DNA of 64,000 nucleotides, taken from NCBI GenBank assembly GCA_003388505.1, contig QQVO01000078.1, forward strand, positions 1-64,000, written 5' to 3'. Position numbers and translations under genes: made by a program. The notes under the pieces were generated by a model. The model was not told where the DNA came from and did not search any database. It saw only the letters and a program-made list of their open reading frames with translations. The number at the start of each line of letters is the position of its first letter. The first letter of the stretch is position 1. This document shows, one piece after another, positions 680 to 6,429 of this stretch. This DNA is from Planctomycetota bacterium (GTDB lineage Bacteria > Planctomycetota > Planctomycetia > Planctomycetales > Planctomycetaceae).

Positions 680-937
680 TTAGCAATTCTTGTTCTCGCG
701 AGCTACGTCGAGTAGCTCGTTCAGCCGAAGAAGAGCCAACTCATGATCTCGCCGGACGATTGCCAGGATTTCCTCGAAGCAGGACTCATTCAATCGCGAG
801 GCTTGCAATGCGTCAAACGAAAGTCGAAGGCAGTGGAAGAAATGCCGCAAGTCATGGGCAAGTGCTGCAAGGTCTTCGGCATCAGACCGACGAATCTTCT
901 GGTTCGACCGTCGTCTCGGTTGGTCGGACTTCATCAT
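680..937 (-). CDS. Small HisKA-like / hypothetical protein, 85 aa
   Basis: This is a short open frame on the same strand as the hybrid histidine kinase and 83 bp downstream of it. The N-terminal 20 residues are basic. The remainder looks like a two-helix alpha-helical hairpin. The segment LAALAHDLRHFFHCLRL (about residues 24-40) resembles the H-box helix of histidine kinases (AHDLR), and a second amphipathic helix follows. No ATPase domain is present, so if real it could be a free-standing dimerisation or phosphotransfer module for the neighbouring kinase. Two tandem ATG codons precede the frame, but the ribosome site is weak. The function is inference; the gene itself is only moderately supported. 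Confidence 0.45.
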   Translation of the reverse strand: MMKSDQPRRRSNQKIRRSDAEDLAALAHDLRHFFHCLRLSFDALQASRLNESCFEEILAIVRRDHELALLRLNELLDVARENKNC

Positions 938-1020: not shown

Positions 1021-3417
1021 TTAGATTGACCCGTTCTCTGCAAGGAACTTTGGATGGATGGCCAATCGGGCGAGTTCATTCAAACCGACCGGCTTGACCA
1101 AATACTCATCACATCCGTTCTCTTCCGCGAGTCTGCGATGTTCGTCGTCTCCATGTCCCGTCAGGGCGACAATCAGCGTCTGATTGTGGGTGTCGAGTCG
1201 TCGCAATTCTCTCGCAACTTCCAACCCGTTCATATCTGGGAGCTCCAGGTCAAGAATGACCATCTCCGGTCCTGATTCCTGATACTGCTGTATAGCAGAC
1301 CTTCCATCGCCTGCAATCGTTGGCGAATGGCCAAGTGATTGCAGCAACAGGGCCGTGATCCTGGCAACTCCCGCCGCATCTTCTACAACCAAGACAAAGC
1401 GCGGTGGAGCTGAGATGTCTTGCAATGAAGTCGGGCTGTCAGCTTCACTCCCGTCTTTAGGTACGTAAGGGTCCAGTACTGGCAAGTTGACCGAAAATGT
1501 GCTTCCTTTGTTGGCACCGGCACTGGCCGCGCGAACGGAACCGCCGTGAAGTTCAACAAGTTGTTTGACCAGGCTCAAGCCCAGCCCCAATCCGCCCATC
1601 GAGCGTTTTCTGGACCGCTGTTCCTGCGTAAATGTCGAGAAAATATCTGCAAGAAGATCCGGTTCAATACCGACGCCGTTGTCTCGGACGTCGACAACTA
1701 CCGAATCCCTCTCCCTCGCGCAAGTCAGCCAGATCTTCCCTTCTTCTTCCGTGTACTTGGCTGCGTTGGTGAGTAGATTCGCGAAAACCTGAGTCAGTCG
1801 AATCAAGTCTCCGTCCAGCGCGATGGACTCTTCGTTGAATTCGACGACCAACTCCTGTCTCTTCTGGGAGATCAAAGGTCGGACAAGCTCGACGGCGCGT
1901 TCCACGATGGTCGATAATTCGACCGTCTCCCTCTTCAGCTCAATCTTTCCGTACGCCAACCGAGACGCATCCAGGAGATCGCTGATCAGCCGGCTCATCT
2001 GCTGCAATTGACGCTTTAAGGTTTCTCGGACTTCGCCGATCATTGTAATGTCAACGTCGTCTCGCTCAAGAAGTGCAACTGCGAACTGCATTGGAGCCAG
2101 CGGTCCGCGCAACTCGTGAGCCAGCATCGCGAGGAATTCGTTCTTCCGTCGATCGGCCCGTTCGAGCGCCTCAGTCTTTTCCTGACTTGCCTGATACTGG
2201 GCCGCCAATTCGGCGTTGGCTTTGGCCAGCTTTCGTTGCAGGGTGACCAGATTGTTATTCAGCCGACTCAGGTCGTCGTCGGTATCCCTCTCGACGAATT
2301 CGGTCGGGACAGAAGTGCCGCGAATGTCCGGGGCAACACGGGGAGTGCCAGTCTCACCTGACGATCGCAGAAACTGTTCTGCGATCTCGATTGCTGCGGT
2401 CGCATCACCGGGACCTGCATCGGCACCGATTCGTTTCCACAAGAACGGATCGACATTGAACGGGTGCCCCCCGGCCAGGATCTTGACGTGGGTGCACCCC
2501 TCGTGAGATCTCACCTCACGGATCACCTCGGCCAGGTTGAACAGGTGTTGGGTCATCGTTGTCGAAATCGCCAGAATGTTCGACCCACTGTTGACAAGTT
2601 CTTGCGTAATGCTGGTTGCCGGCGTGTTTGCTCCCAAATAGATCGTGTTCCAACCATTTGCTTCAAATAGATCTGCGATAATCCGCAGTCCGACCTCATG
2701 CAGTTCGTCACCGACACAGGTTGCCAGCAACGTCTTGTCGGTTTGCCCGCTCGTCAAAAAATACGGGTGCAATTGTGACATGACGAATTGGGTTGCTGCC
2801 GTGCAGTAGTGCTCTTGGGCGACACTGATGTCACCCGCCTGCCACAGACGTCCAAGCTCTCTCTGACTGGGTAGGATCACGTGGAGGTAGATGGACTCGA
2901 TGCCTACACCGTGGTTGATTGCGTCCACCACGAGGTCGACGGCCGAATCGCGACGTGCTGTGAGCAGGTGGTGTAGATAGTCCCGTTGCAGCTGGTCGTA
3001 CGGATTGCCAGTGGCTCCTCCGTCGCCTTGATCCTCTATTTCCACCGGGAGCGAGGCTGCGGCCTCGACCCAGCTGGCAATCTCGTGACTCACTTCTCTC
3101 GGGAACTGCAGTCGGACGGTCTCCAGGACTTTCCTCAGAATGTGATCAACTTCGTGAGTATACGGAGAAGCAGCTTTGGAGACCGTCGTCGACCAGCGTA
3201 GGTAGTCTTGGAACAAGCGGGGGGACGAGTACTCGACACAGGCTGCCAAAGTGAGGAGGAACGTTTCAACGTGCTGATTCGTTTGTTGATGGGTCGCGGA
3301 CGTTGACACCGTTTCGCCGGCCGGCAGCAGACCTTCAAGCCGAAGGGCGACGAGGTCTGCCAGCGTCCGCCGACCCTCCAAGAGCATTCGCGCCGACAAC
3401 TTGGACACGTTGGCCAT
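1021..3417 (-). CDS. Cobalamin-binding hybrid sensor histidine kinase with receiver domain
   Basis: The protein has 798 residues. Residues ~140-220 form a helical region like the four-helix bundle of B12 sensors and contain W192-x9-E202-H203. Residues ~225-350 are a B12-binding Rossmann domain with E238-L-H240-x-x-G243; H240 is the expected lower axial cobalt ligand. A coiled coil (~385-425) leads to HisKA (LAHELRGP, H434 phosphoacceptor), an HATPase_c domain with N-box NAAKY and G-boxes DNGVGI and GLGLGLSLV, and a C-terminal receiver (~673-785) with D in ILDLELPD and K in LVKP. The W-x9-EH motif is the signature of CarH/LitR adenosylcobalamin photoreceptors, so light sensing is plausible. 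There are no membrane segments, so it is cytoplasmic. The partner regulator is not in view. A GGTGGAG site lies upstream of the ATG. Confidence 0.93.
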   Translation of the reverse strand: MANVSKLSARMLLEGRRTLADLVALRLEGLLPAGETVSTSATHQQTNQHVETFLLTLAACVEYSSPRLFQDYLRWSTTVSKAASPYTHEVDHILRKVLETVRLQFPREVSHEIASWVEAAASLPVEIEDQGDGGATGNPYDQLQRDYLHHLLTARRDSAVDLVVDAINHGVGIESIYLHVILPSQRELGRLWQAGDISVAQEHYCTAATQFVMSQLHPYFLTSGQTDKTLLATCVGDELHEVGLRIIADLFEANGWNTIYLGANTPATSITQELVNSGSNILAISTTMTQHLFNLAEVIREVRSHEGCTHVKILAGGHPFNVDPFLWKRIGADAGPGDATAAIEIAEQFLRSSGETGTPRVAPDIRGTSVPTEFVERDTDDDLSRLNNNLVTLQRKLAKANAELAAQYQASQEKTEALERADRRKNEFLAMLAHELRGPLAPMQFAVALLERDDVDITMIGEVRETLKRQLQQMSRLISDLLDASRLAYGKIELKRETVELSTIVERAVELVRPLISQKRQELVVEFNEESIALDGDLIRLTQVFANLLTNAAKYTEEEGKIWLTCARERDSVVVDVRDNGVGIEPDLLADIFSTFTQEQRSRKRSMGGLGLGLSLVKQLVELHGGSVRAASAGANKGSTFSVNLPVLDPYVPKDGSEADSPTSLQDISAPPRFVLVVEDAAGVARITALLLQSLGHSPTIAGDGRSAIQQYQESGPEMVILDLELPDMNGLEVARELRRLDTHNQTLIVALTGHGDDEHRRLAEENGCDEYLVKPVGLNELARLAIHPKFLAENGSI

Positions 3418-3745
3418 TCAACAGACTCCACCTGAATTCACAAGTGCGGTAACCTTCCAGCATACCAGCCCGTGAACCCAGCCGCGAGGCGGACAAAGGC
3501 AGGCTTCGCGGGGTGGCCCGACCGGTCGGGAGACCGGTTGGGTTGCGCAGCAACGATACACCGCACCTGTACCAAGCGAACTCAAGGGCCGACTGCGAAT
3601 TCATCCTCTGTTTCCAGTGCCGGCGGCCAACGAATCGGCTTACCAACATCGTAAACCCGTCGTTTGACCATTTTCCCGGACTTCAGGTCGATTGGACGCA
3701 CACGATCGATCATCTCGTGCCTCCGGCGCCCGGCCGGGGTCGGCC

Positions 3746-4173: not shown

Positions 4174-6330
4174 TCAGCGCGTGGGCGCCGGTCGGCCTTC
4201 GTTGCGCCACCAGCGGAGTTCGTAGCTGCCGTGTTCGGAGCAGGCGGCGATGTCGGGGCGGCCGTCGCCGTTGAGGTCGGCGATGATGACCTGGTTGGCG
4301 CTGCGCCAGTTGTTCTTGAGCAGATGCCGCGTCCAGTCTCCCTTTGGATCGCCCTGATTTTCGAACCAGACGACGCGGCCGGGATTGCGCCACGACGTGG
4401 CGGCGACGTCGATGTCTCCGTCGCCGTCCAGGTCTCCGGCGACCGCTTCAAACGCGTCGTCGAACTCGGGGCCGATAACGTGTTTCTGCCAGGGGCCTTC
4501 GAGAGTGCCTCCTGCGTTCTCATACCAGACGATCTGGTTGTCGGCCCGCCGCTGTGACGCATAGGGATCGTCGACTCCGGGGCGATAATAGAACCCGAGC
4601 GCCATCACGATGTCGATGTCTCCGTCGCCGTCCATGTCGGCCGGGTTCCCGTGGGCTGCGCACTCGGCTGCATCGTCGATCATAATTTTCCGCCACTTCA
4701 GTTCGTCTTCGCCTCCCTCGTTGAGGTAGAGAATCACCTGATCGGCCCGGCGTCCGGTGCCGAGCAGGTCGGCGTCCCCGTCGCCGTCGAAATCGGCGGT
4801 CCGCATGGTGCGGGTCTCAGGGACATCGGGATCGATCATGTGCTTGGCCCATTCGCCGTCGGCCGGGCTGCCGTCGTTCTCGAACCAGGCGAACTGGCTG
4901 CCGGGATACCAACTCGACGCGGCCACGTCGAGATCGCCGTCCCGGTCGAAGTCGGCCAGGTCGACGTCGTAGGCGCCGGGGAGATCGGTGGTCACCACAT
5001 GTCGCTGCCAGAGATTGCCGTCGAACGGCCGGCCGCTGTTCTCGAACCACAGCAGGTGCCCGTGGAGGTTCTTGACGATGACGACGTCGAGGTCTCCGTC
5101 GCCGTCGACGTCGCCCGGCATGTGCCGTTCGAGTCGTTCGGGGTCGTTCTCCTGGATGATGTGCTTCTTGAACGCGGCGTCGCCGTCGTTCTCGAAAAGG
5201 TAGAGCCTATTGTGCGGCTGGTAGTCGGCGCTGGTCAGGTCGAGGTCGCCGTCCTCGTCGATGTCGACGGCGGCGATGCCGTAGGCGTAGGCGTAGTCGC
5301 CGGCGATGAGGTGCTCGGAGAACCGGATTGCATCGGAGGCCGGGGCGTGGGCGTAGACATGGTCGAGCGCGGCCGCGAGATCGAGCCGCCGGAATGTGAG
5401 TTCCGTTCCTGGATCGTGGACTTCGACGCCGGTCTGCTGCATGATCTTGAGCATCGCCTCCGCGATGTTCGGCCCGTCGGCGGACCAGTCGTAGCCGGTT
5501 TCCTGAATGGCCTCGCGCAACAGGATGGCGGCTCCGCAGGCGATTGCATTCGATGACGACGTGGCCGCGGCGGGGACGACGAGGTCAATCTTCGTGTGCC
5601 GGTCGAGATAGACCTCGTCCTTGCCCGGCTTCACGGCTCCGATGGCGAAACAGTCCGGCTGGCAGGCGGGCCAGGAGATGCCGATCGTGTAGTTGTGATT
5701 GCCGGCCGGCGCGCTGACCCAGATTCCGAGTTTGCGGAGTTGTGTGAGTTTTTCGTCAATCGGCGTGGGAACAGGCTCGTCGTGCGCCTCGTCGTCGACC
5801 GGCGCCAGGTTGACCGTTGTGATCCGGTACTCTTCGTGATGATCGATAATCCACTGCAGCGCGGCCGAGACGGTCTCGCCGTCGGCCGTCTTGCAGTGAC
5901 AGCACTCCAGCGCCCGAATCACCGCGACCTGATTGTTGTACGCCACGCCCCACTTCCCGTTGTAATTGAGAGACGAGGGAATGCCGATCGTCGAGCCATG
6001 ATATCCCCGGCCTTCGTGACTCGGATCGTCGTCGTCGCTGACCGCGTCGTAGGCGACGAGCACCTTCGGCTGATCGGGGCCCGGTTCCGACCACTCCGGC
6101 ATCGACAGCTTGCAACCGTCGTCGACCAGCGCGAGCGTCTGCCCTTTGCCGAACGTCAGCAGGTGCTCGTATTTCTCCCACGACCGGACGATTCCCGCCT
6201 GCGCGAACGCCTCCCCCTGAATCGGTTCGCCCGCGAGAACCGAAGACGAGAGCGCGATCACGGTTGCTCCCATTGACAGCAACGACGCGGCAGTCATCCA
6301 ACCAAACAGGAACGTCGTCGCGTGTCGCAT
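4174..6330 (-). CDS. Secreted subtilase-like protein with C-terminal FG-GAP/VCBS propeller
   Basis: This reading has 718 residues. Start chosen at the ATG at 6330 because GAGGGA sits 7 bp upstream and a signal peptide (FLFGWMTAASLLSMGATVIAL, hydrophobic core) follows at once; a frame 29 codons longer lacks both. Residues ~60-330 resemble a subtilisin (S8) fold: Asp in LALVDDGCKL (~70), His in GYHGST (111), oxyanion Asn in APAGNHN (211) and Ser in ATSSSNAIACG (258), which aligns with GTSMAAPHVAG. The motif flanks are unusual, so activity is uncertain. Residues ~345-710 carry seven Asp-rich calcium loops of the type DxDGDGDxD, typical of FG-GAP/integrin-type propellers. It probably acts outside the cytoplasm. 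Divergent from the sialidase-like gene. Confidence 0.8.
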   Translation of the reverse strand: MRHATTFLFGWMTAASLLSMGATVIALSSSVLAGEPIQGEAFAQAGIVRSWEKYEHLLTFGKGQTLALVDDGCKLSMPEWSEPGPDQPKVLVAYDAVSDDDDPSHEGRGYHGSTIGIPSSLNYNGKWGVAYNNQVAVIRALECCHCKTADGETVSAALQWIIDHHEEYRITTVNLAPVDDEAHDEPVPTPIDEKLTQLRKLGIWVSAPAGNHNYTIGISWPACQPDCFAIGAVKPGKDEVYLDRHTKIDLVVPAAATSSSNAIACGAAILLREAIQETGYDWSADGPNIAEAMLKIMQQTGVEVHDPGTELTFRRLDLAAALDHVYAHAPASDAIRFSEHLIAGDYAYAYGIAAVDIDEDGDLDLTSADYQPHNRLYLFENDGDAAFKKHIIQENDPERLERHMPGDVDGDGDLDVVIVKNLHGHLLWFENSGRPFDGNLWQRHVVTTDLPGAYDVDLADFDRDGDLDVAASSWYPGSQFAWFENDGSPADGEWAKHMIDPDVPETRTMRTADFDGDGDADLLGTGRRADQVILYLNEGGEDELKWRKIMIDDAAECAAHGNPADMDGDGDIDIVMALGFYYRPGVDDPYASQRRADNQIVWYENAGGTLEGPWQKHVIGPEFDDAFEAVAGDLDGDGDIDVAATSWRNPGRVVWFENQGDPKGDWTRHLLKNNWRSANQVIIADLNGDGRPDIAACSEHGSYELRWWRNEGRPAPTR

Positions 6331-6429
6331 CGGAAATCCCTCGAATCCTGTCGAATCACACAGCTGCGGTGAAAGAATTGTACGTCCGCCCCCGTTACAA
6401 TCTCGGTCTTTCCGCAATGGAGCACAAGC

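Follow-up and report, generated by a model that had tools for sequence, protein, structure and literature searches.

A photoglobin-B12 hybrid histidine kinase from a planctomycete, a candidate green-light receptor related to photocobilins

The DNA analyzed here (the window) is a stretch of 64,000 nucleotides from a Planctomycetota bacterium of the Planctomycetaceae (GenBank assembly GCA_003388505.1, contig QQVO01000078.1, positions 1 to 64,000). Near its start, a minus-strand gene encodes a protein of 798 aa. The original prediction of a hybrid histidine kinase at this place was borne out by an exact open reading frame, from ATG to stop, and by Pfam matches to HisKA, HATPase_c and Response_reg; the protein has five Pfam domains, all above their own cut-offs (Table 1). 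From N- to C-terminus it consists of a photoglobin, a B12-binding module, HisKA, HATPase and a receiver, and it is thus a hybrid histidine kinase. The prediction had recognized the succession of B12 module, kinase and receiver correctly but had missed the N-terminal photoglobin. The contig ends 1,020 bases past the stop codon of the kinase gene, and no light-linked function was found among the three window neighbors that were run through Pfam. Upstream of the kinase gene, on the same strand, positions 4174-6417 hold a frame of 747 aa in which a subtilase-like stretch precedes FG-GAP repeats. Just downstream, an 85-aa ORF (680-937, minus strand) shows a sub-threshold match to HisKA (Pfam E 0.015) that corresponds to a lone half of the phospho-acceptor domain. 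When this ORF was searched with tblastn in six neighbor loci of relatives (L091-L096; G and L numbers are our handles for genomes and loci), no conserved small partner was found, and the matches below E 1 were to HisKA parts of other kinases only (9e-7 in L091 and 0.01 in L096). A scan of the contigs of the same genome with the whole protein returned two loci only, one aligning with the kinase-receiver part (residues 389-791) and one with the receiver (702-782).

Table 1. Features of the photoglobin-B12 hybrid histidine kinase gene in window coordinates
Feature	Residues	Window positions	Strand	Basis
Coding sequence, 798 aa		1021..3417	minus	exact ORF, ATG to stop
Photoglobin (bilin-type globin), five predicted helices	1-123	3049..3417	minus	profile and AF2 fold
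H49, aligned with SasPcob Asp270	49	3271..3273	minus	alignment
W75, aligned with SasPcob Trp296	75	3193..3195	minus	alignment
B12-binding_2 helical bundle	144-216	2770..2988	minus	Pfam
GxxW signature; W192 predicted adenosyl cap	189-192	2842..2853	minus	alignment and PMC11796333
E202-H203 signature	202-203	2809..2814	minus	alignment
B12-binding Rossmann domain	230-341	2395..2730	minus	Pfam
D237-E-L-H240-E-V-G243; H240 predicted lower-ligand His	237-243	2689..2709	minus	alignment
GxxxP signature	262-266	2620..2634	minus	alignment
Linker, putative signaling helix	379-424	2146..2283	minus	comparison with downstream kinases of relatives
HisKA, phospho-acceptor H434	425-488	1954..2145	minus	Pfam
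HATPase_c; N551, D579 and Gly boxes kept	536-647	1477..1812	minus	Pfam and alignment
Receiver (Response_reg); E679-D680, D723, T753 and K775 kept	675-783	1069..1395	minus	Pfam and alignment

As in the photoglobin family, so far as it is described in the sources used here, the protein joins a globin to a B12-binding domain in a signaling context. Photoglobins are reportedly linked to many signaling domains (the study of Schneider et al. 2022). Residues 1-123 were assigned as a photoglobin through a profile rather than through Pfam, which gave no match for residues 1-128; run on the globin domain of 28 members, Pfam returned 14 families, each in one member, at E up to 1 (Globin at 0.0037). A single-sequence search of the PDB likewise gave only a 4-bit hint of the SasPcob biliverdin domain, over residues 56-90. 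When the 28-row alignment of the N-terminal domain was used as a profile against the PDB, the strong matches were photocobilin biliverdin domains only (8j2x, 1.3e-10; 8j2w, 1.9e-10; 8j2y, 1.3e-6), followed by two designed proteins (0.0026 and 0.0045), an anti-sigma factor (0.066) and phycobilisome proteins (0.15 and weaker). The globin domain modeled alone with AlphaFold2 (AF2) has five helices (pLDDT 88.9) and aligned with allophycocyanins, phycocyanins, smURFP and photocobilins at Z 12.6-14.2, values that sit around the stated limit of this second aligner for helical bundles. Foldseek matches to the same model had E 0.009 or weaker, with photocobilins from rank 30, and the assignment was weighted on the profile and the second aligner over Foldseek. 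When the N-terminal domains of the window protein and of two orthologs served as the query, 18 of the 392 phylum genomes gave a match at E 0.01; fusions account for three of these matches, fourteen lie at places also found by the globin-B12 profile, and one covers 39 positions in a broken frame. W75 is Trp in all 28 globin-B12 rows, and it aligns with SasPcob Trp296, which contacts ring D of the bilin and hydrogen-bonds the corrin (PMC10979010). The alignment offset for W75 and H49 agrees with the numbering of W61, E71 and H72 in that paper.

In the B12 module, W192, Q193, E202, H203, E238, H240 and G243 were verified in the 798-aa protein, and the motifs W192-x9-E202-H203 and E238-x-H240-x-x-G243 of the original prediction stand where it had placed them. 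The spacing of 48 that it gave from the Trp to the ligand His also holds, close to 46 in TtCarH (W131, H177; PMC11796333) and 47 in SasPcob (W61, H108; PMC10979010). The invariant residues across the 28 globin-B12 rows include W192, E202, H240, G243, G262 and P266, and 27 of them keep H203, the lone exception being H203R. Only six of the 33 B12-domain frames in the searched loci have the full combination, G..W-x9-EH and then [DEN]-x-H, which is therefore more than a chance resemblance; three of the six are the window protein and two orthologs. Among the methionine-synthase-sized frames examined, the combination of W-x9-EH with the distal His was not found, and W-x9-EH alone was present in two. 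A MerR-type B12 protein on a contig (C16) of the same genome is without the W-x9-EH motif.

Light-responsive B12 domains are described by the signature GxxW, EH, GxxH and GxxxP (SignatureFinder; PMC11796333). The window protein has GxxW (G189, W192), EH after the Trp with the spacing of TtCarH (W131, E141-H142), and GxxxP, whose Gly and Pro are present in 28 of 28 rows. In place of GxxH it reads D-E-L-H, with D237 for Gly and H240 kept, and is therefore not filed as a strict member of the CarH-type signature; Asp stands at this Gly position in all five kinase fusions found. This change could be taken to mean that the sensory half has lost cobalamin binding, leaving a kinase that is constitutive or gated by a protein partner. 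Such a loss is hardly credible, however, since H240, W192, E202, H203 and P266 are kept in five of five fusions, which differ from the window protein by about half of their residues (51% identity for three of them).

The nearest PDB sequences to the B12 module are the photocobilins 8j2w, 8j2x and 8j2y (E 6e-22 to 1e-18), followed by CtMerR (8jbs, 6e-15), an uncharacterized protein (4jgi, 5e-10) and CarH (5c8a, 1e-9); the photocobilins and CtMerR are AdoCbl photoreceptors according to PMC10979010 and PMC11796333. An AlphaFold2 model of residues 1-362, made from the 28-row alignment (pLDDT 89.8, pTM 0.89), suggests by its pTM a defined arrangement of globin and B12 module, in a domain order permuted relative to 8j2w. 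In VIA-align, the modeled B12 module (138-354) matched photocobilins at Z 26.0-26.5 over 208-212 residues (rmsd 1.8-2.0), and all rows below these had Z of at most 22.5, CarH reaching at most 19.8. By Foldseek E-value, CtMerR ranked first and a photocobilin fourth. The structure prediction and the alignment with CarH thus confirmed a CarH-type fold but put photocobilins nearer than CarH, and the likeness to CarH/LitR that had been proposed holds for the pocket motifs and not for closest kinship (photocobilins, Z 26; CarH, Z 20). CarH as the closest relative was rejected, photocobilins standing clearly above it in both the PDB sequence search and the VIA alignment. The B12 module is nearest to photocobilins in sequence and fold, and the photoglobin on the same chain as a CarH-type B12 domain places the protein with photocobilins, not with CarH.

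The comparison with characterized systems bears this out in detail. The window protein shares with SasPcob and AbDPcob (8j2w, 8j2x, 8j2y) the CarH-type pocket of Trp, EH and lower His and a photoglobin with its Trp (PMC10979010), and with SasPcob also the Gln that adjoins the pocket Trp. At this Gln193 position TtCarH carries a second His (H132), from which the original prediction had concluded that the photochemistry may differ; this was not upheld, as SasPcob has the same Gln and shows a green-light spectral change (PMC11796333). The true departures of the window protein are rather D237 for the signature Gly and His for the bilin-holding Asp, as judged from the alignments. The globin comes first in the window protein, whereas it follows the B12 domain in SasPcob; a reversed order is known, since photocobilins are grouped by a B12 domain at either end (PMC10979010). 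The output of photocobilins, as far as they are described there, is none or a diguanylate cyclase, in contrast to the kinase and receiver of the window protein. CarH/LitR and CtMerR (5c8a, 3whp, 8jbs) have the AdoCbl pocket motifs and a similar fold (Z 17.7-22.4); by the papers' descriptions they lack a globin and act through a MerR DNA-binding domain. The catalytic B12 modules of methionine synthase and corrinoid proteins have the same overall fold, with Z up to 22.5.

The bilin site differs from that of SasPcob, in which Asp270 holds bilin rings A-C (PMC10979010). This Asp is absent from the window protein, which has H49 instead, as does AbPcob at the same position; the other four fusions, its orthologs, have Gln. 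Position 49 is Asp in seven of the 28 globin-B12 rows. In the kinase-linked clade, outside the fusions, it is Asp in the proteins of G458, two Azospirillum, Skermanella and G242, Glu in G102 and Asn in Ilyobacter. Heme oxygenase, sought with PF01126 alone, was not found in any of the five fusion genomes, the window's own included. Among 31 genomes with the globin-B12 family, which include all five fusion genomes, four matched PF01126 at E 1e-3, three of them over the cut-off and none from the window's family, and 27 had no match at this threshold; three of 14 control genomes were positive. Asp49 proved a weak marker of bilin binding: G319 and G383 have PF01126 over the cut-off with Asn and Phe at position 49 (L039, L059), and G458 has the Asp with no PF01126 match. 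Because Asp49 and heme oxygenase do not track each other across the relatives, a loss of bilin in the fusion clade is only suggested by these sequences.

Two readings of the photoglobin follow different sides of this evidence. The protein could be a full photocobilin that senses red and green light with biliverdin or another bilin, supplied by another enzyme or the surroundings. The globin fold is nearest to bilin-binding globins, Asp is the poor marker just described, and AbPcob, with His at the Asp270 position, still bound some biliverdin and answered red light (PMC10979010); Asp270 therefore does not define photocobilins, of which AbPcob is a named member. With His or Gln at this position in all five fusions, Asp in the separate G458, Azospirillum, Skermanella and G242 proteins, and no PF01126 found in the fusion genomes, we regard red and green sensing as distinctly improbable, and a native bilin in the window protein as unlikely. 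Alternatively, the photoglobin of the fusion clade might have become a chromophore-free lid that kept the cobalamin-touching Trp, lost the bilin-holding residue and reports the state of the cobalamin to the kinase. This proposal is tentative and somewhat doubtful; if it is true, a B12 kinase responding to green light only would have been reached by loss of red sensing.

The output half looks active, because the window protein shares its catalytic residues (H434, N551, D579, the Gly boxes, E679-D680, D723, T753 and K775) with two orthologs, which have 57 and 56% identity to it. The linker is partly common to the separate downstream kinases of relatives. Adenosyltransferase, sought with PF01923 alone, was found in three of the four fusion genomes searched (the five less G448), the window's own included.

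The spread of the family was followed with a globin-B12 profile. At E 1e-15 it matched eight of 170 genomes of the window's family: five have kinase fusions (G000, G004, G016, G422, G448), one has a separate globin-B12 gene (G458), and two match from the B12 part only. At 1e-20, matches were obtained in 52 genomes of the phylum sample of 392; the search gave 56 places, and the loci obtained for 30 of them were used. From 40 candidate rows, an alignment of 28 (the window protein and 27 others) was made after omission of L036 (a copy of L007), L046 and L060 (whose matches begin only past the globin) and ten rows, L064 among them, with E weaker than 1e-38. Seven long frames that might have been multi-domain proteins (L041, L048, L054, L055, L057, L059, L061) gave only B12 domains in Pfam (E 0.01); we take them as separate globin-B12 proteins, the frames of L057 and L061 being cut by the locus end. 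With six further rows (L087, L088, L106-L109), a midpoint-rooted tree of 34 rows was built in which the five fusions lie on one side of a branch (support 100/99). They nest in a 12-row set (100/98) with four kinase-adjacent rows and those of Skermanella, Ilyobacter and G242; Ilyobacter sits on a long branch, and its position is uncertain.

Each of the four kinase-adjacent relatives keeps the two halves apart. In G458, the globin-B12 gene (L095, 1070-2146) shares 4 bp with a downstream HisKA-HATPase-receiver gene (2143-3576), whose product aligns with the window protein from within the linker (residue 381) onwards, and in G102 a 4-bp overlap joins the globin-B12 gene to a HisKA-HATPase gene. 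In an Azospirillum thermophilum replicon, an annotated histidine kinase follows downstream in the same orientation, and a small hypothetical gene between the two partly overlaps it; in A. brasilense Sp 7, which carries no annotation, our own kinase profile placed a kinase frame about 0.5 kb downstream. No kinase was found beside the Skermanella, G242 and Ilyobacter rows; in Skermanella rosea the next gene encodes an SCO-family protein on the opposite strand. The 27 phylum loci L038-L064 were scanned with the same kinase profile over flanks of about 1.5 kb, contig ends permitting; a kinase was close by in only one (L038, whose gene is also the one in L096), and the longer stretches L097-L102 showed none. 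L088, L095 and the Azospirillum records were obtained through separate searches. The link to a kinase is therefore limited to one branch rather than general. On Ilyobacter polytropus pILYOP01 (L108, 3809-5852), the globin-B12 gene overlaps a GGDEF gene, a pair that parallels, as separate genes, the fusion of photocobilin and cyclase. Ilyobacter polytropus is an anaerobic fusobacterium from marine mud, and light sensing there would be surprising.

The analysis established the domain order, the homology, the conserved pocket and kinase residues, a single fusion clade and some kinase adjacency; AdoCbl binding, a light response, the direction of the switch, the packing of the globin and the lack of bilin we infer. 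A light-sensing kinase, as first suggested, is the best reading of the window protein, and in more specific form it is probably an AdoCbl-dependent, green-light-responsive photoglobin-B12 hybrid histidine kinase. H240 would bind the cobalt of AdoCbl from below, W192, E202 and H203 would hold the adenosyl group, and the photoglobin would pack over the corrin edge via W75. In the dark, AdoCbl on H240 would keep the sensor dimer in its dark form, for which SasPcob and AbDPcob are the precedent. Green light would break the Co-C bond and release the adenosyl group (the light state of SasPcob is ligated by water or hydroxide; PMC10979010), upon which the E202/H203 helix would move and shift the helical bundle and the dimer contact. 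Passed through the linker to the HisKA dimer, this shift could alter the balance of kinase and phosphatase and hence the flow of phosphate from H434 to D723 and onwards. AbDPcob offers a precedent for coupling to an output: with AdoCbl, light raises its apparent turnover more than 10-fold, and it stays dimeric during activation (PMC10979010), which would suit a kinase dimer better than the monomerization of CarH. Action of AdoCbl alone, under green light, seems likelier than a red-light response because of the His at the bilin-holding position and the lack of a PF01126 match in the genome.

Several observations speak against a green-light kinase, namely D237 for the signature Gly, a fold common to the B12 modules of methionine synthase and corrinoid proteins, the first rank of CtMerR in Foldseek, three of 12 clade rows in which no adjacent kinase was found, one kinase-adjacent locus in 27 across the phylum, and no light-linked neighbor among three. 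The same pocket could serve a sensor of AdoCbl amount or of cobalamin form (adenosyl or hydroxo, hence oxygen or redox), to which light is incidental. The pocket as such requires only AdoCbl binding, GxxH is altered in all five fusions, and the related globin-B12/GGDEF pair of Ilyobacter comes from marine mud; against this stand the adenosyl-capping residues, kept in 28 of 28 rows bar the one H203R, and the nearest characterized relatives, which are photoreceptors. We consider such a sensor unlikely.

A photoglobin-B12 photoreceptor with an output domain is already known as a kind. The green-light kinase proposed here differs in its globin-first order, its kinase-receiver output, the altered GxxH and the changed bilin site. 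The partners of B12 photoreceptors named in PMC11796333, as far as that text lists them, are HTH, DGC, GAF, MEDS, ANTAR, DICT and PDE, and the B12 photoreceptors characterized in the portions used of PMC10979010 and PMC11796333 act via DNA binding, a cyclase or protein contacts; neither "kinase" nor "histidine kinase" occurs in the main texts of the two papers. Among the literature matches listed, titles and the beginnings of abstracts name no B12 photoreceptor kinase. A natural B12-driven histidine kinase would tie AdoCbl photochemistry to two-component signaling and would offer a green-light kinase module, and a comparison of separate genes, overlapping pairs and fusions, the last with an altered bilin site, provides a direct test of the globin's role in the absence of bilin. 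In one fusion genome (G004), the gene next to the fused B12 kinase runs the other way and encodes a large multi-PAS hybrid histidine kinase of 1325 aa (L091, 9463-13440, minus strand), a possible signaling partner.
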